DNA of 64,000 nucleotides from Telopea speciosissima. Its lineage: Eukaryota > Streptophyta > Magnoliopsida > Proteales > Proteaceae. The stretch spans positions 8,321,307-8,385,306 of the forward strand of contig NC_057920.1 of the NCBI RefSeq assembly GCF_018873765.1, given 5' to 3'. The notes under the pieces were generated by a model, which worked only from the letters and a program-made list of their open reading frames with translations, was not told the origin of the DNA and ran no database searches. Of the stretch, positions 19,101 to 62,447 are shown piece after piece; within the stretch, counting starts at the first letter, position 1, and every line of letters begins with the position of its first letter. The translations under genes and the position numbers were made by a program.

Positions 19101-22100
19101 TGGAATAGCAAAACGAGATTCATTCACTTGACAGCATTTGGATGGAGTTTTTGAGTATGGCTTGTAATTAACGGCCAAAACACTTCAACCATAAGTTAAT
19201 TGGAAATAAAGCAAGGATTGATTCAAGAGAAGAAGAAGAGATGCACAACTGTATGGGAGAGAATCGTTTTCTCCCCTATATTCTTTACTAACATAAAGAT
19301 GGAATTACATACACCTCCCTATGGAGGTAAAAGGTAAAAAAAGAGAAAAATACAACTTAAGGTGACAATACAATAAACCAGTAACCATAGTACCCCTATT
19401 GCATAAAATTTAACAGCCCCCTCAAGCTAGAGAATAAATGGCATACATTCCCAGCCTGCATTGAAGGGTATTGAATTGGTGAGGGATGAGTCCTTTGGTG
19501 AAAATGTCTGCCAATTGATCACTTGTCCTCACAGAGGGAGTATAAATGTAATAAGAGTCAATCTTCTCTTTGATGAAGTTTCGGTCTACTTCAATGTGCT
19601 TTGTTCAGTCATGTTGCACTAGATTATGAGCAATACTTATAGCATCTTTGTTATCACAATAGAGCTGCATAGGTTCCTTGGTATCAAATCCTAACTCTTG
19701 GGTCAATCGTCTCAACAATATGAGTTCACATACTCCATGAGCAATACTTATAGCATCCTTGTTATCACAATAATTTTGCCTCTGCACTAGACCTAGCCGC
19801 AACGTGTTGTTTTTTGCTTCTCCATGTAACTAGGTTACCACCTACAAATGTACAATAACCTGATGTAGACCCTCTGTCAAAACCTGAACCAGCCCAATCG
19901 GCATTACTGCATTAGTGTAGCCCTCTATCCTCAAATGGTTGTGCCTGACATATAAAACTGCCCACTCTTGGGGGCATGCATAAACGGGCTCATTACCCCA
20001 ACTGCATAGGTGATGTTTGGGCGAGTCAAAGAGAGGTAGATCAACTTTCCCACTAATCTCTAGTACTTTCCTGCATCAATAAGGGATGGACCACAATCTT
20101 CACCAAACTTGTGATTTTGATCAATCGGAGAATTTGTTGGTTTACAACCCATCATCCCTTTTTTCTATCAACAAGTCCAGTATAAACTTCCTATTGCAAA
20201 TATTTATTCTCTCCTTTGATCTTGACACTTCAATCCCCAAGAAGTACTTCAAGGGTCCAAGATCTTTAATCTCAAACTGTTGGGTCAAGTAGGATTTCAA
20301 TCCACTTATCTCAACATTGTCATTCCCAATCACAATAATGTCATCAACATAGACAATAAGAGTTGTGATAGTACCATTCCCTAGGATGACCTATCTAAAC
20401 CGCTCAAACTAAACCTTAGGAGACTGTTTGAGGCCATAAATTGCTTTTTTCTTAGGAAACACACTTTCCCTTCAGCTGAGGAAACTTGAAACCAGGTAGA
20501 GGTTGCATGTACATTTCCTCTTCCAAGTGACCAGGGAGAAAAGCATTCTTCACATCCAACTAATACAATGGCTAGTCTCTATTGGCCGCCACTGATAAGA
20601 GGACTCTTATTGAGTTGTGTTTAGCCACAGGTCAATCCCATACACCTGACTGTACCCTTTGGCAACCAACCAGGCCTTATATCTCTCCACAACACCATCT
20701 GATCAGTACTTAATTGTATAGACCCACCTGCATCCAAGTGGAACTCTCCCCCTAGGGAGATCAACTAGTTTCCGAGTATCATTCTTCTCAAGGGCCTTCA
20801 TTTCCTTAGACATGGCTTCTTTCCACTTTGGGTCAAACATGGCCTCAGTAACATTCTTGGGAATGGAAGAGGAGGAAAGAGTAGTAGAAAAGGCAACACC
20901 TGTAGGAGAGAGAGCATCATAGGAAACAAACTTGGCTATGGGGTTAGTACATGCTCTCTTTCCCTTTCAAATGGCAATGGGAAGCTCTAACTCAGAGAAA
21001 GGAGAAGGAATGTTACCTGACTGAGGAAGGTGGAACTCAGGATGTGGATCCTAAGAGGACTCTTGGCAGGTCTACTTTCCCCTTGTTTTTGTACACAATT
21101 AACTCCTTCTTATTGCTAGACTCAACACCTATATGATTACCAATATCAACAACATCCACTTCTTTGTGTTTCCCAATATCAAGCAGGAATGGAGAGATAG
21201 GAAAAGGTGGGAGAAAAGGTATGACATCAGCAACCTTTTCACTCTCACTAGTCTCCCCCTAAAGAGGATGCTAATGAGGAGTAAAGAAAGGTATAGATTC
21301 AAAGAAGGTGACATCTTTGGAGAGAAGTCGTCTTTAAGAGGGATGGTAGCACTTACACCCCTTCGTAGAGGAGGTATATCCAAGGAAAAGGCATTTGAGT
21401 CTTGGGGTCAAGCTTAGTCCTAGCAGATTTATTAACATGGACATAGCAGACACACCTAAACACATTGGGAGGAAGAGAGAAAGCAAGAACTTGGGGAGAC
21501 AGGGTTTCCAAAGGGGATTTGGAGCCAAGAAGTTTAGTGGACATGCGGTTGGTTAAAAGGCAGCAACAAGAAGGGTATTAGACCAAAAATTCTTAGGGAC
21601 ATGCATGCCAAATAGGAGACTCCTAGTGACTTCCAGCAAATGGCGATTTTCCCTCTCAACTACCCCATTCTATTGGGGTGTGTCAACACAAGCAAGCTGA
21701 TGGATAGTGTCATTGTCAGGTAAAAAAGTTTTGGAGACCACCATACATTTACTCCCCCCCCCCCCCTCTTTATCAAAACTAACAATTTTAATGCGAGTAC
21801 CAAATTGAGTACAAATCAGCTGATAAAAATTTTTAAAGGCATCGTAGACATCACTCTTTTGTTTCATAAAAAAAGTCCAAGTGGACTAGGAATGCACAAT
21901 ATTGAAAGTGTTAGATATATGGCCAGAATACCGTGGGGGTATTCTGGACCTTTTCCTCTTTTTGTTATTTTATTTGTTTTGTATGTGGTTTAGTCCCACA
22001 TTGCTCATGTACATAATTTCACTGTTTCATTAGTCTTATAAATAAAGAGGTGCTTGGGGTGAATAGATCATCCAAGCCGTACCCTAAGTTCAAGTCTCTC

Positions 22101-25100
22101 TACATGGTATCAGAGCAGATTTCGAACTAGGGACTGTTCCCCCCTTCGATTTCAGTTTTTTTTCTCCCTCTCTCTCTCTCTCGATCTTCTTCCCCTCTCT
22201 CTCTTTCTCTCTTCTCCCTTGTTCTCCATCCCCATATAGGGCAGCACTGATGAGGTGATCATGCGATCCAGCTGCTGCCCCCATTACCTCAGTTATGCTT
22301 TATAATTCTGCTCGATAGGAACCAGCCAATTCCTGCCTGCGATATCTGGAGCTTCAGTTTTTTTGGAGATTGCTTCTACTTCAGTTACAAGGAATCAACT
22401 CCTCTTTTTGAAGACCACAACCTGCAGCAGGATTTCCTTCTTATTGGCTCAGGTTCTTATCTCACAGCTTTGTTCACAGATTACAAGACCTCCAAAGATT
22501 GATTTTCACAAAACAGGGTTTTTTTCAAAACCCTGACAATTGTCGATCTAGGAGTTTGTGCACTCTTTTGTTTCTGATTTTTTGAAGACTGATTCTCCAC
22601 TTATAAGGCACCACTCGACTGCAATTTGGGCTTCATCAGTTCAGTTTTTTTTTGAAGACCTCCCTGAGATCGATTCTCCACCATCACAGGGTTTTTTCAA
22701 AACCCTGACACCTATCGATCTTAGGGCTGCTGCTGCTTCTTTGGATCTTATTTTTTGCAGGTGTTTTCCTCCATTATAGAGGCTCCCTCGACTTCAGTTT
22801 TAGTCCGTTCACTGCAGTTTTTTGGCCCCTTGGTTCCATCATCGATTTCAGCAATTCAGGGTTTCTTCAAAACCCTGACAAAATCGATCAGGGATTTTTA
22901 CTTGGTTGCTGGTTCTGTCTTTTGGAGACTTACTTAGTCTCAATACAAGGGGCTTCTCCTCCATATTTCAGCTTATAACTTGGAGGAATTATTGGACTTC
23001 TCTGCTGCTGGTATGGGTGATTCTTCCAATTCTACAGCCACCTTGGATCATGATGGCCACAGCAAGATAGACTACCACAGTTTTCCACCCAACCCTATTA
23101 AACTTGATGGCTCAAATTACCTCCTATGGTCCAGATCTGCCTCCTTTGCTATTCTGGCCATATATCTAACAGAAAGGAACAGTGGATCTATACCATGATA
23201 GGGATAAAAAGAACGACAATGTTAAGCAAAAATACATGGTTCACACTGAAAAACATGAGAAGGAAAAGAAGTAAACAAATGTGGTAATTGTTTTATTATA
23301 ACAACAAAAGAAGGGTGGCCTAACCGTTGATGCCAAAGCATCACAAAATCTATAGTACTACTGTCATTCTGGCCACACACATAGGACTGAGTAGTAGGCA
23401 AAACAGGTGTGCAAGGTTCAAGAAGGTAGAGTCCTTTCTCCTCACATCCACTGCCAATAATCCTCTTCGTCACCAAATCCTAAAAAAGGCAATGAGAAGG
23501 AAAGAAGGTGACACAACAATTCAAAGATTTGATTAGGTGATTCACAGATAATAGATTAGTGGCAAAGTTAGGAACATGAAGAACCAAGTCAAGGGAAATA
23601 GAAGAAGTGACCTAAACACTACCTTTACCAGATATAGAAGAAAGGGAACCATCAACAACTTTAACCTTATCCCTATTAGAGCAAATAGAGTAGGAATCAT
23701 AACACTAAGACATACCAGTCATGTGATCGATGGCACTAGAGTCAATAACCCAAGGACCAATAGAAGGTGCAGATGTATAGACCTACAAGGCTAAGGCTGA
23801 AGAGTCTGACACTGTAGGAGTAGTAGAAGAGCTACACAGCTGGGACATCATCCTGCGGAATGCAGCAATATACTCTCTAGTAAGGGGACCATTATCTGTC
23901 TGTAGTCCTCCTCTACTGCCAAGGGAAATAGAAGAAGTTACCTAGCTCAATCTCAGCCGTCACGGTGTGGGCTCTAGCTCCCCCTCTCCTGCCACCACGC
24001 ATACTAAGGGGACGACCGTGAAGCACCTAACACCTCTCTCTAGTGTGCCCAAATTTCCCACAATAATCACATCTGAGTCTATCTCTGTTATCCCCACGGG
24101 GTGGCCCTAGGCTTCTTCCCCCACCTCGCCAGTCTCTATGGGAACTAGAGGCAAGTGCAGATCTCTCCAGGGATGGTACAATGTTCGTGGCTACTCTTCT
24201 GGTCTCCTCACCCATAAGTAGCTATATACCTCATCTAAAGATGGAAGGGGTGATCGTCCCAAAATTTGCATCCGAATTGGCTCATATTCTGGGTTCAGCC
24301 CGCCAAGTAGAATAAGAACACGCTCCTTCTCAAGTGTCCTATATACCTTTGCCTCATCTTCGGGGTTGGAAAATTGGAGGTCCCTATAATGATCATGCTC
24401 TTCCTAGAAACCAATAAAAATGCAGTAGTATTCAGAAATACTCCTATCACCTTGCTTCATTGTGATGACTTTCTGAAGGAGTTGGTAGACTTTTGCCGAG
24501 TCACCCACTCAGTCAAATGTCTTGGAGACCCTGTCCCTAATATCCTTGGTAGTCTCCTTCCTCATAACCTTCTACCAATCTCAGGATTCATAGAGAAATC
24601 AGCCAAGGCATAACGGTTGAGTTCTTGGTCTCCCATTTCAGATATGTCGGATCATTTGACTTAGGAGCCTTAATAGAACCAGTAATGTACCCCATCTTCC
24701 CTTGACTTCGCAGAGACTACTTCACAGAGTGAGCCCATTCCAAATAGTTGGTGTTGTCCAACTTCACAATGGATATCTGGTATTGGGGTTCTCAAAGATG
24801 GTCATACTAGGGTTGGTACCACCCAAACCACTAGCCAAAGCTTCCACAAGTCCACTGACCTTAGACCCAGACATGATATGTAGACACACTTAGTGGTGAT
24901 ACCTTAATCAAATGGGGAGTACACTCTACCCAAAAATGCAGCAAGCAAACAAACCACAGGTACTTGAAGAAAGTCAAATCAAATGCACCTTTCACAATGT
25001 AGCTTCATTCCATAACAACCAATAAGCCTCACATGATGTAACTCTCCTACCAAGAGCTACTATTCAACACACCACAAGGCATTTCAGACGAAACAAAGAG

Positions 25101-30985: not shown

Positions 30986-33900
30986 ACACTTCGTGATTTC
31001 TTCAACAGCCTTTATGACTTCCGTAGAGCTGGTTTCAAGCACTTGACCACCAAATATGATCTCATCTAAGATAGTATGCATCTGCAAGGAACCAACTGAA
31101 TTTAGATCAATGAGCATTGAGCATGATGAATCTAACAACTGCATCTGTTTCACATATAACCAGGCCAAGTCCCCACCATCCAAGTTCTTCATTAGGGTTT
31201 AAACAAGCTGAGCATTTCACCAGCTTGGATAAGTCAACGAGTCAAGTAGAATTCTATGAGACCATTGTTGACTGCTCAGATGCTAGACAAGGTCAAAGAT
31301 GGATTGGAATGGACGAATGGTGGAACAGGAATTCTATAGTCTGTTGCATGTAGTTAAGATAGATCAAGTCAAGTGACACCTATTTCCAACAATCGTTTTC
31401 TTAGATCTGAAGATTTCATGATGCTACTCTCCCATGATTCTTTTATTCCCATTGACATTCGAGTCAACAAAATGGGAACATATTAATTAAGGAAGACACA
31501 CCCATACAGTCACACACGCACACACACACACACAAACCTTATTAAAATTGAACACAACATCAAGCTCACAGACATTCTTGAAGCATTTATCCAGTGTCTC
31601 GACAAAAACTGAAACCAAAGAGAGATCAATTAAAAAAGCAATCCATGAATTAGCAGCAAACAGTGAAAACAACCATATATGTCATGCTGTCACCTAAGTG
31701 CCGCATAGGTGTCCAGGCTCTTTCTTGGGTCCAAGGCAATAGCACGCCTTGTTGACACTTGACGAGCTTACGTTGATTTATGTTTATTGTTTTGTTTTTT
31801 GATGGACAAGCTTATATATATCCTATGCTTGGTTTATTATATGTCAGTTTTCTCATATGATGTCATTACTAGCATAATTATATCATATTACATTGACATA
31901 ACTTTTATGTTGCATATAAGCATAATTATGTAAAATTGTCACTGCTACATTACATTTAGTCATATACTGCATACTAAAGACACCGAGGCGACACCTGGGC
32001 ATCCTTTCAATGCCTTGGGTGCCATGATAACTAAGAAAACAACAAAAAATCATGTCAAAATAACCAGTACCCAGGCTGGTGCAATCCAGGGTTCGAAAAC
32101 CCTGCTCGGATTGCTTATGGGCCCACCCAAGTGATAGAGTGCAACAATTCATTTATCTAGACCATAAGGCACTGAGCCACCACCCAAAATCAATGGATCA
32201 GACCAACCAAAAGATCTTGATTTGCAAGTCTGGATCCAGAAACTTGGACTACTTGCAAGACTAAGCTAGCTGACCACTAGAAAGATAAGAGAAGTTACTA
32301 ACTCAACTATTAGAAGTATTCAGGTAGAGCAAGCCCCAAGGAAAAGGTAGCCACTGAACAAACAGTATGAATTGATGAGCATCATCCCATGCATGCAAGA
32401 AAGAAAATATTTAGGTTCCAATTACCATGCTGGACAGTATGTCAGTATGAGTTGAGAGTAGCAACCCACAAGAGAAAGAGTAACAAATGTAGGCTATTTT
32501 CAATAAATGGTCAGCTATGCCATAAAACTATAGACTAATACATTATGATCATGAGAGAACAAGATTTTCTTGAGGCAAAGATGTTAAGTGGATCTGAATT
32601 AGAACTCTATGCTTGGATGATTAATTCATCCCAAGCACCTTCTTATTTATAAGAATAATAGAATAGTAAAATATGTACATGAGCAATGTGGGACTAAACC
32701 ACATAATACAAAACTAATTAAATAACAAAGAAAAGGTCCAGAATACCCCCACGGTATTCTGGCCATATATCTAACACTCCCCCTCAAGTTGGAGCATATA
32801 TATCATGCATGCCCAACCTGACTAAGATAGGATGAAACAGCTTGCTACTCAGTCCCTTAGTGAACACATCAGCCAGTTGATCAGTAGACTTCACAAAAGG
32901 AACACAAATGAGGCCGGCCTCAAGCTTCTCCTTGATGAAATGTCGGTCAACCTCCACGTGTTTAGTACGATCATGCTGGACAGGGTTATGAGCAATGCTA
33001 ATGGCTGCTTTATTGTCACAATAAAGCATCATGGGAAGATGGACAGCAACACCGATATCCTGTAATAATCCTCTAAGCCACAGAAGTTCACAAATTCCTT
33101 GGGCCATCGCACGAAACTCAGCTTCAGCACTGGACCTGGCCACAACATTCTGCTTCTTGCTACGCCATGTGACAAGGTTCCCACCAACAAAGGAACAGTA
33201 ACCAGAGATAGATTTCCTGTCAGGAGAACCAGCCCAATCGGCATCAGTATAGGCTTCAATCTTAAGGTGACCCGTGGGAGATAGAAGGATTCCCTTTCCT
33301 GGAGCAGACTTCAAATACCTCAAAATACGACGGACTGCATCCATATGAGAAGAATAGGGATCATGCATGAACTGGCTCACCAAACTCACAGCAACTGCAA
33401 TGTCAGGTCGTGTGTGAGAAAGGTAGATTAACTTGCCCACTAACCGCTGATAAATACCCTTGTCAACAGGCTCACCCTCTTTCTCCCTAAGTTTTGTAGT
33501 AGCTTCCATAGGAGTATCTGAAGGATGACAGCCTAGCAGCCCTGTGTCAGTCAATAGATCAAGGACATATTTTCTTTGAGAAAGAAAGATGCCCTTTGAA
33601 GAGCGAGCAACTTCTATCCCTAGAAAATATTTCAGAGGACCAAGATCTTTGACCTCAAACTCACGGCCAAGGAGGAGCTTCAAATCCCTGATAGCATCAC
33701 CATCATTACCAGTGACCACAATATCATCCACATAGACTATGAGAAGAGTTACCTTGTCACCAACTCGTCTGATAAACAAAGTGTGATCAGCATTACTCTG
33801 CCTATAACCTGCTGAAATCATAGCCTTGTGAAATCTGCCAAACCATGCCCTAGGTGACTGTTTCAGCCCATAAAGTGCACGCTTCAGTCTACAGACCTTG

Positions 33901-36900
33901 CCCTTGGTCCTATCATCAGAGAATCCTGGTGGAATGTCCATATAGACCTCCTCCTCAAGCTCCCCATGGAGGAAGGCATTCTTGACATCTAACTGTTGAA
34001 GATCCCACCCAAGATTTATAGCACAAGATAATAGCACCCGGACAGTGTTGAGCTTCGCCACCGGTGCAAAGGTCTCCTGATAGTCAACTCCATAAGTTTG
34101 AGTGAACCCCTTTGCAACCAGACGTGCCTTATATCGATCCACAGAACCATCAGCCTTCTGTTTGACCACAAAGACCCATCTACATCCAACTGGTTTCTTT
34201 CCCGGAGGAAGAGTCACAAGCTCCCATGTATTATTTTTATGTAGTGCTCTCATTTCTTCCAACATTGCTGCCTTCCACTTTCCATCTGTAGATGCTTCCT
34301 GCCAAGTTTTAGGAATCGAAACAGAAGAAAGAGAAGATACAAAAGCACGAAAAGATGGAGAAAGAGAGCTATAAGAAACAACATGAGATATGGGATGTAA
34401 AGTACAAGTCCTAGTACCTTTGCGGTGAGCAATAGGTAGGTCGGAAGAAGAGGGATTACCAGGAGATGGAGGATCTGGATCTGGAGCCGGCAATTGGATG
34501 GGTATTGGTGCTAAAGGGGATTGCAACTGCCCTCTGTTGGTTCTGCCCCTTGTGTAGGTGAGTATGTTGGAATTGTCAATTCTCTTCTGAAATGCACCAA
34601 TAGTTCTCTGGACTGGAGTCAGCTCCCCCTGAATAGGAACATTAACAACACTATTTTCTATGGTCTCCCCCTGTAAAGGATTCCCATTAGGTGAGGGAGG
34701 AACAGCCGGAGGAGGTTGGACATCATCCAAAGGAGGTTGGACAGCAGCCGTGGGTGCCGTCAAAGGAGGCTGGACAGCAGCCAGAGGAACCTCTAGTGGA
34801 GGAATCTCAAAGGGCACATCTTCACTAGAACTCTCCCCTTGAAGAGGTGGTGAAGAATAATAAGAAAGGGCCTCATGGAAAACAACATCCATACTCACCA
34901 AGGTACGACGGGAAGGGGGATGGTAACACTTATAACCTTTCTGGGTGGGAGAATAACCCAAGAAAATACAACGGAGCCCACGAGGCTCAAGCTTGCCTGG
35001 AGATCTGGTATCCCTAGCATAACACACACACCCAAATACTTTGGGAGGGACAATAAAGGAGGAATGGCCCAGTAAAATATCAGAGGGGGTACGGGAATTA
35101 AGAACCCGAGAAGGGAGCCTATTGATGAGATAGGCGGCAGTAAGAACCGCATCCCCCCAATATTGAGAAGGAACATTCCTCCCAAACATCAAAGCCCGGG
35201 CCATTTCCAACAAATGGCGGTTTTTCCTTTCTGCCACACCATTCAGGCGGGGTATCAACACAACTAGTTTGGTGAATGATGCCATGATTAGCCAAATATG
35301 TTTGAAATTGTGATTCAGTAAACTCGGTTCCATTATCACTTCTCAATATTTGGAGAGTAGCCTGGAACTGAGTTTGAATCATCTTATAAAAATGCTTAAA
35401 ACATGAGAAAACCTGATTTTTAGTGTGCAAAAGATATACCCAAGTGTTCCGAGAATGACAATCAATAAAAGAGACAAACCAGCGATGACCAGAAATAGAG
35501 GGCTTGCGACTAGGGCCCCAAACATCAGAATGTACCAAATGAAAACAAGAAGAACTCCTTTTATTTGAAATAGGATAATTTGAACGTGTCTGTTTGGCCA
35601 GAACACAAGCCTCACAAAAAAAGTCATCCTTAGTATGTAGGGTGACCAAACGAGGAAATAAATGAGCTAAAATTCCGAAAGGGGGGTGACCTAACCGAGA
35701 GTGCCACTGGTAAAGTTCAGAAGAGACCAAGGAGTTTTGATGCAGCGGAGAAGGCAATGGTGGTGGAGAGAAGCGACCGTCATCAAGTAGGTACAAGCCA
35801 CCATGCACTTTACCCAATCCAATCGTCTTCCCAGAGGCCAGATCCTGAAACACACAATGAGATGGAAAAAAAGTGACTTTGCAGTTAAGATCACGAGTAA
35901 TACTACTAATGGAAAGAAGGTTAGTAGTAAAATTAGAAATATGTAAAACAGAAGACAAGGGAAGAGAGGAAGTGCAATTGATGAGTCCTTTTCCAGATAT
36001 TGAAGAAAGGGACCCATCAGCCACTTTGACCTTATCTTTCCCAGAAGTGGGAGAATATCTGTGAAACAGACTAGAGGAACCGGTCATATGATCTGTAGCT
36101 CCAGAATCTATGATCCAAGGATGGGAAGCCACAGAGGCACAATGACCTACAAATGGAATACCTGACCGGGCAAAGTGTGAACCTGAAGGAGCTGAGGAAT
36201 TGGCAGTAGCTGATGTAGTAGAGGCAGCAGCAGCGGAAGTCCTGAGCATACGTAGGAGGGCCTGTAGATCATCCTGGGATAGACCAGTGTCGATGCAGGA
36301 GTTGCGAATGCAGATCTCGATCGATGGGCCTTGGTCTTTGTCTTTATCTTTGTCTTGGCAGCCCTTTTAGCTTCAAAATCAGCCGGTTTCCCATGAAGTT
36401 TCCAGCACTTCTCCTTGGTGTGGTAAGGTTTGTGACGAGTACTCACAAACAACGGACCTGTAGTAGAATCACCAAGAGAAGCAATGCCACTAGGTGCGGG
36501 AGTGGCGGGGCAGCACTGGAGAGCGATCTGTCGAGTAATAGGGGGTGCAACATGGCAGCCCTACGGTTTTCTTCAGAGGAGACTAGGGCATATGACTGTT
36601 CAAGTGTGGGAAAAGGCTTGTGACCCAACACTTGAACCCGAATCTGATCATACTCCACATTTAATCCTGCCAAGAAATCATAAACCCTGATTTTGTCCAT
36701 GTGTTGCTTATAAGAAGTAATATCTGTAGCTGTACTTGGGTGAAAATCAGAAAAATGGTCCAATTGCTGCCAAAGGCTGCGCAAGGTAGCATAGTATTTG
36801 GAGACTGTCAATTCTCCCTGAGTAGTGTGAAGGACCTTCTTCCTGATTTCATATACCTGGGCATCATTGCCAAGCTGTCCATAAGTCTCCTTGCAAGCAG

Positions 36901-39900
36901 CCCAAATTTCTGAGGCTGTATCAAGGAGAAGAAAATTGTGTTGTAGATCTGTAACCATAGAACCAATCAAGTAGGACATAAGAACTCCATTGTTGGCAAG
37001 CCACTTGTCTTGAGCAGCCCCAACCTCAGTAGGCATAGGAGTGGATCCCCTAATATGACCAGTAAGGCCACGGCCAGCAATGGCAAAGGAGGCAGACCTA
37101 GACCAAAGTAGGTAATTGGTGCCATCCAACTTGATTGGATTTGGAGAGAAAGTATGATACTCTGGTTTGCTGTTTCCATCACCAACATAAGTAGCAGTCG
37201 AATCCACAGAGTCACCCATGGAGACAGTGAAGAATCCCAAATCGGAGAAGAGGGCTGTTGTGAAGAGAAAACCAAGAACACCTCCAAGTTAAGGGCTGAA
37301 ACAAGGATGAAAGCCTTCTAATAATGAAGGAATAAGTGTCTCCAAGAATCAGCAACAGCAGCCAGAGAAAACCTTGAGATCGATATTTTCAGGGTTTTGA
37401 AAAAAACCCTGAAATTGCTGAAATCGATAAGATGATGTGAGGCCTGAAAAATGACTGTATGAGGCTGAAATTGCAGGCGAAGGACACTTGAACAGATGTG
37501 AAGCACTCCTCAAAAAATCAGAATTAACTGATAAGTGGAACCCCAAGATCGACAATTGTCAGGGTTTTGAAAAAAACCCTGAAAGTGTGAAGAGATATCG
37601 ATCTTGAGAACTTGATGTAGCTTGATGTAGGTGCTGGAATACTGATCTGCCGCAGGTCTGAAGCTCCAATATAGTGAACAAAATCCTTGTAATATAATGT
37701 GAATCTGTCCAATGAAGGCTGAAGTCTTCAATATTCGCAGCAAAGGAGGACAGCACCTTATCGATCAATTCTTCATATCATGAAGTGAGGTAACAAGGGA
37801 GGGCAGCAGCTGGATCAATAGATCACCTCATCAGTGCTGCCCTATGGGACAAAGAAGAACAATGCAAAACAGAGGAAAGAAGAGGAGAGAAGAGAACAGG
37901 AGAGAGATCGAGAATTAGAGAAGGGGAGGGAATCGTGGATGGTTCTAATTCATAACCCGCTCTGATACCATGTTAAGTGGATCTGAATTAGAACTCTATG
38001 CTTGGATGATTAATTCATCCCAAGCACCTTCTTATTTATAAGAATAATAGAATAGTAAAATATATACATGAGCAATGTGGGACTAAACCACATAATACAA
38101 AACTAATTAAATAACAAAGAAAAGGTCCAGAATACCCCCACGGTATTCTGGCCATATATCTAACAAAAGATTTTGATGTTGTTGGAGATAAGACTAAGAG
38201 ACCTCTAGATGACAGTGAGGTTCCAGCTCATTTTCATGTTTTAATGTTTTTATATCCTCCAACAAAGTCAATAGCATTAGTGGTGGAACAAGATGCTTCA
38301 AATGCCCTTGTATTTAGTTATGGAGATTTTTGCTCAAAGGACTTTCAGATTTTTTTTCTAGGAAACACTTGAGAGGATTATCTTGCTAAAGAGGCCTGGT
38401 CTAACCCTTCTTTAATCATCAGCAGTCATTTTAAAGTCTCCCTAATGAAATCTATTAATTTATATGCCATTGCTGAAAAAATAGGATTTAGAGTTTTGGT
38501 ATGTGTTGATGCATTTTGTGCAGGATTGTGCCAGTACAGATATGGTACTAGTTACCAATTTTACTTTCTTCTTTTTCATATTTATTTTTTTAAAAGGATT
38601 TCCTGTTCTACAGTATTGTTATATAGTGCTGTATAGATTCTACATTTCACAATTTTTTCCCCCAAGGAAAAGGATTGAAGTTGTATACAGTTGAGGAATT
38701 ACTTTTGGAAATAGTCTGTAGTCTCTTGAAGTCAGCTTGATGTCTAGTAAGCATTTTAAATTGTAGAGATATTTTATTCATAAGGTTTAAATGTATGTCG
38801 ACATGAATTGTCTTGTTCCTGAAATGTACCTTGAATAAGATCAAGCATGGCAAGCTCATTTTCAGAACTATCGAACACAAAAACAAAGTAAAGTGTCGCA
38901 AAGTGCTTGTAGACCAGCCTTGTGTCCTACAAGAAAGAAGGAAAAATAGGCATGAAGTTTCTGGCTCTTCAAAAGGTATAATTAGCAAACAAGATGGTTG
39001 ATATCAATCATCTGATTTCCACAGAGAAAGATAAACTAAGAGAAAACTATGTGAATAAAAAAGAAGAAAAAAAAATCCTATAACTGCTTTAATGTCATAA
39101 CTTATGACTAAGATTCTATGAAAACAAGGTAAGCCATTTAAAAGTTCTGACATTCAATATTGTAAGGACAGATGTGAACTGAGTGTGGAACTCACTCTCA
39201 ATTCAAACTTTCGGAACTAAATTTGCATAACAATATTTAAAGAGAACTTATTTAGCATGTTTTGCAAAAGATCATTCTGTTTGGAAACTGGAGGAATTAC
39301 ATGAAACTTCAAGGAGAAAATGGACTACAGTATTGGAGAGGTCGTGGGTTCATCTGCAAATAATACCAGCTTATTTTTTATTTTATTTTATTTTTTTAAA
39401 TTTGTAACTTCAGAGACAATGACTGAAGAAAAGAAGGGTGAGTATTGGGCGATGGGGGAGGGCGAAGAATGCCATACCGGTCCAAAAATAGAATCAGCCT
39501 CAACGAAGTCGCTCACATTTTCAGCTCTACTGCTTAAAACTGATGAGAAAGGAAAGAAAAAACGAATCGAGAGGTTAATCTAGACAATTCTTAAGAAATT
39601 TATGATGCAAATTACTGAAAATTGGCATAGAATCCAAAGCCGTGGATCCGCTTGTAGCCTCATGGTTACAGATTTCAACCATGGATAGGAACTGGGCAAG
39701 GCCCCATAACAAACGGTAGCAAGAGATCCATTCAATGTTTAAGAAAGACACTACAATTTGCAGTAACAAAGAAAAATAAAAAGAAAACGAATAAGAGAAA
39801 CTGTTGATTACAACCTCCAAAAACACTCCGAATCAGCTCCTGCTGCTTCTCAGCGGGCTAACCTTCCAATTCAACTCAAAAGAACAATCCATTATTGCCA

Positions 39901-46500: not shown

Positions 46501-49500
46501 ACAAAGTAAGAGGAATGAAGATTAAGAAAAAAAATGAAAAAATGGGATAATGGGATAAGAAAAGTAAGTAATGGAAAATGAAAAATGAAAAGTAAGAGGA
46601 AAGAGGATAGCCCAGGAAAACATGAAAAAAGCTTAGAATGTCAAGGTTTGTAGTTTATAATGTCGTTTATACATTTAAGGGGGGAAAAAGCTCAACATTC
46701 CTCAAGTTGCGAAGTCCACCCATAAAACATAAATTAATTGGAAGCATAACTGGATTAAATCAGTTGAAAATTTGGTGAATGTCAAGGTTCAAGGTTTTAG
46801 TTCGGAACCGAAATATTTTGCTAAACCGCGAAATTTTGGTCGAAACCTGGAAGGTTTCGGTTATGATGGTTTCGAGGTCCAAATGGCCAAATTAGTTCCC
46901 AAAACTTCTAGGAAACCCTATTTTAGGCCCTCTAAACATAGTGGAACCCTTAGATTATAAAAAACCACATACAAAATGGTGGTTTGGCTTTAGACCCTAG
47001 GTTGGTAGTGTATGCAGTACGTTGTACGATGCTGTATACATAGAATTAAGTACTAGAACACACATAATTCAATTAAAACAACTAAAATATGCTTTAGGAA
47101 TGAATAAACATAAAGTCAGAAAAAATTTGAGAGATGGCATCAGAAGATGATGTGGACCCTTAACTTGAGCTCTATTAAAGAAAAGATGACTTAAATTGAA
47201 CCATTGAACCACCAGTTCAACTAGAACTTAAAATAAAACAAAAGCAACTTAAACTACAACAAAGTTGACCCGTTGGATTTTCTACGTTGGTACGCCCTTA
47301 ATTTTGCATCATCTATGGAATGCATGGATCATTCTTACTTTAAATTATATGTATCTCCGTTTTAATAATTTTGGAACCATTAAAAATGTAGTGATCATTT
47401 CCCGTTGTAAATTAGAAGTCTATGATTGATTAAAACCTCCATGGAGTATCCTTGATAGCTTATTAAGGCAACTGGTTATGCAAGATATACGACCTTTTTC
47501 ATTAGTCAATTATGCTTTAAAACAAGTGCCTTTATGCCTGTAAGCTTTATAATAAGTTTCCTACTAGCTTCCATGTGTTTCTTAATTTTCCAGCTTTGAA
47601 CATATCCATACATATCTATGGTCTCTTAAAGCTGAACCATAGTTCTAGATCTCGGCGAGATCTCGCTTTTATCTCGGTTTCGTAGCATCTCGAGCCGAGA
47701 TGACAAGCGATACAGAATTAATACCATATCTCGGTGGATCTTGAGTTATCTCTCGTTTCGGTTTGACTCGGTCGAACCAGACCTTATTAAAAGCTCATAA
47801 TACACCATAACTCAATGAGATCTTGACTCGCTCTCGCCTCTCTCTTGCCTGTCTCGCCTCTGTGAAGGGGAAACTCCATCTTTGGGTCATTTTTTTTCTT
47901 TTTTTTTGGCAAATCACACCTCCAACACCTCATCAAAGCTTGATTCATTGAAGATTGAAGCTGCTAATCTCCTCCAAGCTGCATCTTAAGAACCTAAGGT
48001 AACTATTCGTCTCAAAAACTATATTTTTCATTGAAACATGATCTAAACTTGTTTGTTGACTATGAATTTTTCATAGAAACATGGTCTAAACTTGAGTTCT
48101 AAATATTGTGTGGAATAGCCTAGGGTAGACCTCATGCACGCCGTAAACTACCAACTTAGGGTCCGTAGTCAAAGTACCATTTTGGGTTTGAATTTGTAAA
48201 AACTAATGGTTCCACTGTGTTTAGAAGGCCCGAAATAGAGGGAATGTCAAGTTTCAGCCCCCATCTTGGCCATATGGCCACCGAAACCTACCATCGAGTT
48301 CAGGAAAAAAAAAAAAAAATACATGATCTCGCCGAGATCTCAGTTTCGTGGCCTGGCGAAACCAGTGGCAAAACCGAGACCTAAAACCTTGAGCTGAACT
48401 CACTTTGATACCAGCACTTTTCTCGTAAAGTATACATAGACCTAGTAAACTAAACCTACTAAACCTAGCAGCACCCACTCAGCCCACTTCTCGGGTTTGA
48501 GTATCTTTAAAACTTCAGTATGCAGATGGGATCCAAATTTCAAGTATAAAATCCTTTCGTCTTTAAACCACAGTTTCCTTCTTCATCTCTAACAGAGATG
48601 GGTGGTCTTTGTGGGGTAACTTTTCCACCTAGAAGTATGCTTTGGTTATTCTGACCAGTGAATGGATGGGGATTACCTGGATAGGCCACATGTCAAATTT
48701 AGTGGCCTACCTCATCTATATGACCCATTGTTGATGGGGCTTTACCTCTCTTTTTTCAACAGTCCCTGTTCTTCAAATATAAGTGGGTGTTTGAAGCAAT
48801 TTTCAGAAACTTATCCTGACACGTGATGATGTTGGATTGGGTTGAAACCCATGAATAGATGATGACATGGTGCATCCCTGCTCCTAATATAGAATATTTC
48901 GTCTGTAATTTTTATTTGGCCTTTTCCTTCTTTCTTTCCCATTTGCTTTTTGAGTAAATTGAATTATGATTCTAAAAAGCAAAAGAAAATGGCTAACCAT
49001 TTTATATTGTCAGCCATGGAAAGAACAATTGGCGTATGGGGATGATTCAGTATATTGTACTTGTGGTGTCTGAATTGACTTGGAGCTGTAACGAGCTGAC
49101 TCATCACTCTGTGATTGTCACAAGTTGCATGTTAGGGGCCTGACTTACTGGTTGTACATTTGGTTAATCGACATTTTTATGAAGTCAGGTTAAACTCAGC
49201 ATATATATTAGGCTGAATCAGGCAAAGACCATGAAAGAATACACTGCCTATGCATTGGGCAGATTCTGGCCCCAGGCCCAAGTCCATGAGTCCAATAGCC
49301 ATTTTGTGTTCAATTATAAGAAAAATTAGCTGAGCTTGCAAATAAGCCAACTACATTGATTTGGAGTTGCCAAGCATTTTTCCCCTCTCCCTTTTTGGGT
49401 GTACTGAATCGCCAAGTTATTATGGTTAATTCTATGCATCAGAATTGACAGGACATGCAAGTAGATAATTTCAGTTTCTATATTAGACATTACTAGTATT

Positions 49501-61352: not shown

Positions 61353-62447
61353 CAATGTTCGAACTTTCGGTCAAAATGGCCAAAATTTTGCGAAATGTTT
61401 CGGTTTTAACAAAGGTCGAAATGAAACCAGGTGTGATACCAGTGTCTTACCAAGTTTCAGTCAAAATGTTGCAGTTTCAGGCAAATTTTCGCCTATGTTT
61501 CGGGTTTTGGTATCGTTTCGTTGAAACCATGTGTATAAAATGGATGGGTTCGATCGAAATTTCAACCATGTTTTGGGTTCCAATATCATTCAGCTAAACT
61601 TCCTAGAAAACCTCAATTTTTTTGTGATTTTTGGCCAAATCACTCCCATATCTTTGTAATAAACCATGTATAATATTAATATTTGACATTAAGAGATGAT
61701 TTCCAATTTTATTTTTACTCATTCCTAATGCATATTTTAATTGTTTTAATTGAACTATGTGTGTTCTAGTATTAAAATTTGTGTAGAATATGTTTATTTT
61801 CATGTTTATGGGAAATACATACACGAATTGCTTCTGGATTATAATTGGAAACCCCCTTTTCTGGATCCATCTCACATCAATAACTCGACCCCTTCCACCT
61901 ATATGTAATTTTAGACAAGTTTCCTTTGAAGTGGATACCTAAATGCCCAGTATGGCTAGTAATAATCTATCTTCCGGGGCATACGATAATTCGTTTGTCA
62001 TCTGAGGTGTTAATTTACCTACAAAAATATCACCCGTATCAACCCAAGATCCCAGCATCATAATTCCATTTATGTCTAAATTTCGGAGTAAATGGGCTTC
62101 TAAATGCGGTATTTCATTAATGATCCTTTCCGGACCTTGGCATGTCACATGAATCTGAATTTAATATTTCCATATGTATATTATAACAAGTATACAACAG
62201 CATACAACGTACACTACCAACCTAGGGTCCGAAGCTACACTACTATTTTGGGCGTGTTTTTTTACAATCCAAGGGTTCACTATGTTTAGAGGGCCTAAAA
62301 GAGGGTTTCCCATAGATTTTGGAAACTAATTTGGCCATTTGGCCCTCGAAACCAGTAGCCGAAACATGCAGCAGACCTACCAAGTTTCAATCGAAATTTC
62401 ATAGTAGCGCAAAATATGTCAGTTCCGAGCCAAACTTTGAACCTTGA
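61353..62447. mobile_element. hAT-like word-repeat element carrying plastid DNA
   Basis: 1095 bp with perfect 8 bp target duplication ATGAACAA (61345-61352 and 62448-62455). The ends are CAATGTTCGAACTTTCGG and (inverted) CAAGGTTCAAAGTTTGGC. Both flanking zones are dense in TTTCGG, CGAAAT, GAAACC and GTTTCAG words. The inner part matches the inverted copy at 46785 (CTACCAACCTAGGGTCCG, CACTATGTTTAGAGGGCCTA). In the middle is a 360-base plastid rpoB segment absent from that copy. It lies in a presumed NDUFS8 intron. Confidence 0.82.
61800..62165 (-). pseudogene. rpoB: Nuclear copy of a plastid rpoB fragment
   Basis: On the minus strand it reads as part of the plastid RNA polymerase beta subunit: [86 protein letters not shown]. 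About 110 codons, with a stop and frame change near 61930 and 61850. It is plastid DNA moved to the nucleus. The boundaries are approximate, set by loss of rpoB similarity. Confidence 0.85.

Follow-up and report, generated by a model that had tools for sequence, protein, structure and literature searches.

Two copia-derived insertions with a U3 end at both termini in the genome of Telopea speciosissima

The 64,000-nucleotide stretch of the Telopea speciosissima genome analyzed here (C5:8321307-8385306; hereafter the window) carries a 1263-bp insertion of a Ty1/copia-type long terminal repeat (LTR) retrotransposon that is bounded on both sides by a U3 (unique 3') end. We consider it about 60% probable that this insertion is the chromosomal copy of an aberrant linear complementary DNA (cDNA) with two U3 termini, inserted by integrase after a strand switch that preceded integration. 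The preliminary description of this DNA had proposed such a two-U3 product, made before integration and inserted by integrase, and this is still the best reading, the right side running to the exact U3 terminus and then into the direct 5-bp duplication. A second insertion with two U3 ends was found on contig C7 of the 823-Mb genome, in which loci are named here by contig labels (C3, C5, C7 and so on).

The insertion occupies window positions 21909-23171, has a direct GAAAG at either side and is composed as follows:

21904..21908, no strand: target-site duplication GAAAG, left copy
21909..22104, plus strand: complete LTR of 196 bp, TG..CA, with the left U3 end at 21909
21921..21950, plus strand: hairpin at the U3 start, GGCCAGAATACC / GGTATTCTGGACC, predicted from the sequence and from the fold of a relative's LTR
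22052..22077, plus strand: second inverted repeat, immediately following the TATA-like site; its counterpart in C7's own LTR contains the C7 junction
22105..22116, plus strand: primer binding site TGGTATCAGAGC, directly after the LTR, which we take to be of the iMet type
22117..23012, plus strand: leader containing a 33-nt direct repeat in three copies that are 64-100% alike
23013..23153, plus strand: gag, first 46-47 codons, in the frame MGDSSNST...SASFAI, followed by inverted U3
23150..23153, plus strand: switch point, TATT of the inverted U3; ATT or TATT also stands in the gag of sister copies, followed there by (G)CTGGCC, which is again like the inverted U3
23150..23171, minus strand: inverted U3 end of 22 nt forming the right terminus, TATTCTGGCCATATATCTAACA
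23172..23176, no strand: target-site duplication GAAAG, right copy

This layout bears out the preliminary description in its outlines, namely a perfect GAAAG duplication around 1263 bp, a complete LTR, primer site, leader and 46 gag codons, no 3' LTR, and 22 final bases that are the inverse of the LTR start. The two arms (21909-21930 and 23150-23171) are 100% complementary over 22 nt, and gag is the sole frame read in the insertion. The TG..CA LTR, the primer site, the copia gag/pol of the parent family and the 5-bp duplication place its origin in a Ty1/copia element. A canonical LTR retrotransposon has two direct LTRs with one U3 and one U5 (unique 5') terminus; here, the right terminus is an inverted U3. 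Neither this insertion nor that on C7 is a solo LTR, i.e., one LTR from U3 to U5 between duplications. In both, a single duplication encloses the whole rearranged unit, as befits a template switch before integration. The 22-mer of the arms has four copies in the window, all exact when up to three mismatches were allowed, compared to a mean of 0.00 in 100 shuffles. A scan for inverted pairs (arms of at least 10 nt, spacing up to 25 kb, repeated flank of 4-9 bases) returned the arms of this insertion as the only ones that reach 20 nt and combine a 5-base flank with TG/CA ends.

As a reference, we used a relative with two LTRs from the same window:

32582..38165, minus strand: two-LTR relative with LTRs at 37971-38165 and 32582-32776 and target-site duplication TCTTT

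It has the normal layout of U3 left, U5 right and a 5-bp duplication. Its LTRs of 195 bp differ at about one position (99.49% identity over 196 aligned bases), GAGGGGGAG stands directly before the 3' LTR, one frame corresponds to a copia reverse transcriptase (RVT_2, E 2.1e-76), and its gag matches fall below the curated cut-off. Positions 1-45 of its LTR are predicted to fold with -19.5 kcal/mol. The LTR of the insertion shares 167 of 185 aligned bases with the 5' LTR of this relative and 190 of 195 with the LTR at L121 (contig C9), the nearest among the compared loci. Window positions 22990-23153, spanning its gag stretch, align to at least 39 other places in the genome with 86-96% identity (40 of 485 candidates scored, the window's own copy included).

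The target of the insertion is itself a decayed copia element on the minus strand, now present in two parts:

21301..21908, minus strand: left part of the host copia, on the integrase side as judged by the appearance of its translation; no Pfam match
23177..23596, minus strand: right part of the host copia, GAG-pre-integrase domain (E 1.4e-10)

When the flanks are joined with one GAAAG, an unbroken frame (..RSTVPFNIVHS..) results that runs through a conserved-looking copia stretch. A paralogous host copy (L011, contig C11) aligns gap-free across the site, with two mismatches adjoining it; what was added is therefore the insert together with one GAAAG.

The second case, at C7:54114876-54115049, is a 174-bp insertion with TAAAA at either side and both U3 ends exact. 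It runs from U3 to about LTR position 148-151 and then continues with inverted U3 to the exact end. Its first 148 bases are identical to LTRs at four other loci (L137, L112, L093 and L031), which indicates that it is young. Joining its flanks with a single TAAAA (220 bases) gave insert-free matches at four paralogous places, covering query positions 1-210 or 1-212 over 208-212 bases with 81-82% identity. For a 102-residue stretch at this site, a Pfam scan gave only matches below the curated cut-offs. Since the two events have two junctions and two ages, the insertions of the window and of C7 are of independent origin. This pair also bears on the idea that the right end was made later in the chromosome, by a local inversion or by break repair inside a normal insertion. 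Rearranged copies do exist, and an inverted U3 piece lies inside another complete element on C3, but in two unrelated insertions the break would have had to hit precisely the boundary between the final element base and the duplication, and neither an inversion nor a fold-back in the chromosome readily gives an exact U3 terminus followed by a direct 5-bp duplication. We regard such an event as highly improbable.

The 22-mer occurs 210 times in the genome, whereas the gag-U3 junction of the window occurs once (up to three mismatches in 30 bases), as does the C7 junction (up to three mismatches in 26). To these counts we added a census of exact 18-base U3 ends followed by bases other than CC, divided by their outer bases into two classes, of which 100 of 101 and 100 of 105 ends were covered. 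Among these 200 ends, 74 neighbors within 12 kb lie on the same strand, one pair faces inward and two pairs face outward, the latter being the window insertion and the C7 insertion. Roughly estimated, about 0.02 outward pairs within 2 kb are expected by chance, and about 2e-5 if an equal 5-mer is also required. The 100 ends of the first class were read in context: five belong to the window, L074 and L075, and all 95 ends of the other loci lie inside LTR-like sequence. Directly inside the inverted U3 end, non-LTR sequence stands in 3 of the 100 (window, C7 and C3:24990402). The ends of the second class, for the most part 3' LTR boundaries, were mostly counted rather than read in context. The far ends of unpaired 5' LTRs fall outside the census, which would overlook U3-U3 copies in which one end is mutated.

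Pattern searches that barred the normal next base yielded no further two-U3-end case among the matches read, and the 22-mer had no match in viral_contigs and genome_contigs. Three other places with the 22-mer lacking its preceding G (4 matches) proved to be LTRs with a C-to-T change. Eight further candidates from 8 + 4 pattern matches (L007, L040, L117, L135 and L158-L161; counted apart from C7, the two C3 places of the element at 24987872-24999655, and C11:53909298) are LTR variants. The candidate at C3:24990402-24990424, where pol is joined to inverted U3, was rejected: it is located within a complete two-LTR element with CCATT at either side, and foreign DNA follows. Its junction uses a similar match, the reference pol reading TTCTGGCC and the inverted U3 TTCTGGCC. 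The element in question (L075/L077, C3:24987872-24999655) is a two-LTR copia with a CCATT duplication in which pol runs into some 22 bases of inverted U3, with foreign DNA and a nested LTR element beyond.

The preliminary description had raised the possibility of a recurring class of small elements and advised a search for other joins to an inverted U3 end. The gag junction itself is not repeated; the class recurs as independent events, given that the C7 insertion has another junction and its own 5-bp duplication. A single amplified small element is ruled out by junctions that are each single-copy at up to three mismatches. The same count speaks against a DNA transposon with 22-bp inverted repeats that is LTR-like by descent. 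The inverted ends and the duplication are those of such an element, but copies sharing both ends and interior, as in a DNA-transposon family, were not seen for either structure, and we give this reading hardly any credence.

At the switch point, the gag of sister copies resembles the inverted U3, as judged from the best 20 of the 39 places matching the gag stretch of the insertion. The sequence (T/C)ATTGCTGGCC is present in 16 of these 20 copies (seven with T, nine with C), and the remaining four deviate by one or two bases. All 20 carry ATTG(C/T)TGG(C/T), 16 the full CTGGCC, eight TATT, and seven both. The inverted U3 reads TATT-CTGGCC, to which gag corresponds at 9-10 of 11 positions with one extra G; 10 of 11 are matched in seven sister copies, and the inserted product is without this G. 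The 4-base overlap TATT of the preliminary description is thus indeed shared, but it is only part of a larger homology, and the strict overlap comprises only 3-4 bases, since U3 by itself could account for the T. With a nascent U3 strand ending in GGCCAGAATA as the primer on gag, the match would lie within the primer, which is the expected side.

In LTR-element replication, DNA that is begun at the polypurine tract has its physical 5' end at the U3 terminus, and an event on free cDNA would thus explain the exact ends directly. The strands and the enzyme in the following steps are what we infer around the observed anatomy, duplications, paralogous empty sites, switch-point homology and second case. 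A short plus strand of about 22 nt, begun at the polypurine tract and starting exactly at the U3 terminus, would mis-anneal with its 3' end (..GGCCAGAATA) to the complementary gag sequence (T/C)ATT(G)CTGGCC of another plus strand. The acceptor, likewise begun at U3, would extend across the LTR, primer site and leader and reach into gag. Each of the strands, annealed tail to tail, would then be copied to the 5' end of the other within the particle, giving double-stranded DNA with U3 at both ends and no U5 end primed by transfer RNA (tRNA). The integrase would pair both U3 ends and insert them in a concerted manner with the usual 5-bp stagger, leaving a normal duplication. Copying off a free DNA end would yield an inverted U3 up to its exact terminus followed by the direct GAAAG, whereas copying in the chromosome would continue into the left flank.

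Reverse transcriptase is the likely agent of the switch, rather than the end-joining of two cDNAs. In the latter scenario, two cDNAs enter the same site next to each other, each attached through its U3 end alone, after which their free ends are trimmed and joined by the host at short homology. Two exact U3 ends and one 5-bp duplication would be obtained in this way as well, the match at the gag junction suits microhomology joining, and the right end on C7 can be read as a U3 variant (CATGG, seen at L158) that differs from the left U3 and possibly stems from a different molecule. This comes at the price of two cDNAs and, for each of the two insertions, a repaired chromosome break and the trimming of one partner to about 22-26 bases, and we hold it to be possible though rather doubtful. 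A further variant requires only one free cDNA, the 3' end of which, in gag or R (the repeat region of the LTR), folds back onto its own 5' U3 end and is extended by reverse transcriptase or a host polymerase before integration. It shares the exact-end logic of the strand switch between two plus strands. The U3 start and the region after the TATA-like site are predicted to form hairpins, and short inverted templated insertions arising by fold-back are reported for yeast breaks (PMC11724301). However, the gag 3' end in the window has only ATT or TATT to anneal, further match being on the wrong side, and a folded single strand still requires a second strand. We therefore consider fold-back improbable.

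Several points weigh against the strand switch before integration that we favor. The data are compatible with both reverse transcriptase and host end-joining, and the two-U3-end insertions total only two cases. On C7, the junction overlap is only 0-1 base, and the insertion admits two readings, one of which calls for a single point change and the other for a different U3 variant as acceptor. In a second subfamily there were no opposite-facing pairs next to 33 close same-strand neighbors (100 of 120 places covered). The sister copy nearest by sequence to the window insertion reads CATT instead of TATT. A shuffled 22-mer scored at least as high as the reference gag site (7) somewhere in the element interior in 300 of 300 trials; the mean best shuffled score was 8.4, and the best observed match (9) is located in pol and not at the gag site. 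Complementarity of this size being common in shuffles, only its coincidence with the switch point counts.

Other copies of the family look as if they had undergone related rearrangements. L076 (C3:19416307-19418066) is a 1.76-kb insertion with GTTAA at either side, ordered as U3 start, antisense gag and leader up to the primer site, pol end, polypurine tract and complete 3' LTR, with junction overlaps of about one and four bases. Its inverted leader-gag segment within one duplication suggests a rearrangement before integration. An exact coincidence of the end of the antisense segment with the normal minus-strand end is made less likely by the 4-base overlap TGTT at that junction. L094 (C5:13547200-13547559) is an LTR with tandem partial units, from about position 30 to 156, in which the join ..GATGAATTAA|CGGTATTCTGG.. 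contains bases that look taken over from the inverse U3 hairpin strand. C7, L076 and L094 have breakpoints that cluster within some 15 bases, at the inverted repeat immediately following the TATA-like site, where pausing of reverse transcriptase could be expected. In L160 (C3:25497340-25497490), L159 and L161, the U3 hairpin has a loop that is flipped or otherwise changed compared to other copies, possibly by micro-inversions between the arms. L037 (C2:56955579 leftwards) and L043 (C3:23679297 leftwards) have 5' LTRs cut after about 39 and 101 bases, respectively, and joined to the leader, so that R and U5 are lost together with the entire or almost entire primer site.

Elsewhere in the window, an open frame at 41297-41839 matches mTERF (E 6.7e-12) and is probably part of a real host gene. 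Another at 28241-28954 matches the reverse transcriptase domain RVT_1 (E 4.7e-07) and probably belongs to a non-LTR element. Positions 46782-47122 and 61700-62447 form an inverted repeat pair about 15 kb apart, 77-85% alike.

The two insertions suggest that a plant copia element can integrate cleanly and in a concerted manner even without a U5 end. More speculatively, and with considerable reserve, copia-type integrase might routinely accept two U3 ends, so that LTR retrotransposons would release a steady side-stream of inverted-ended mini-elements independent of the tRNA primer, overlooked because annotation programs ask for two direct LTRs. If so, they would form a natural link between LTR elements and elements that have terminal inverted repeats. 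Products of faulty cDNA with two U3 ends are expected to be missed by LTR finders based on direct repeats. If common, such inverted-ended products could pass for miniature inverted-repeat transposable elements or be discarded as decayed copies, and they would provide a countable readout of reverse-transcription errors across genomes.

Among known systems, TRIM/SMART-like elements are likewise small, non-coding and LTR-derived, but they possess two direct LTRs and form families. The insertions described here have neither two short direct LTRs nor many copies of one structure. The Ty1 integrase is said to insert artificial transposons with U3 bases at both ends; these were reportedly made in vitro, whereas the present insertions are natural. 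A copia-type integrase has been assayed in vitro on U3-end DNA (PMC9673352). Template switching is established for plant copia elements (PMC1950507, PMC2923131). The complexes of Angela, Opie and others (Sabot and Schulman, 2007, PMC1950507) resemble the window insertion in that they were rearranged before integration by abnormal template switching and carry one 5-bp duplication. They keep normal outer LTRs with U3 and U5 ends and gain a third LTR, while the window insertion is without a U5 end. HIV-1 proviruses with asymmetric LTRs or inversions are also defective integrated products, and strand misalignment and two packaged RNAs are invoked for the asymmetric LTRs; as far as the excerpted text of PMC9278108 goes, these cases are LTR deletions and inversions and not two U3 termini. 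A report of natural two-U3-end insertions was not found in the titles and abstract openings searched, a coverage that takes in few subscription journals. Rearranged copia insertions with intact duplications were thus already known, with normal outer ends; the new part is the natural insertion with two U3 ends, encountered here twice.

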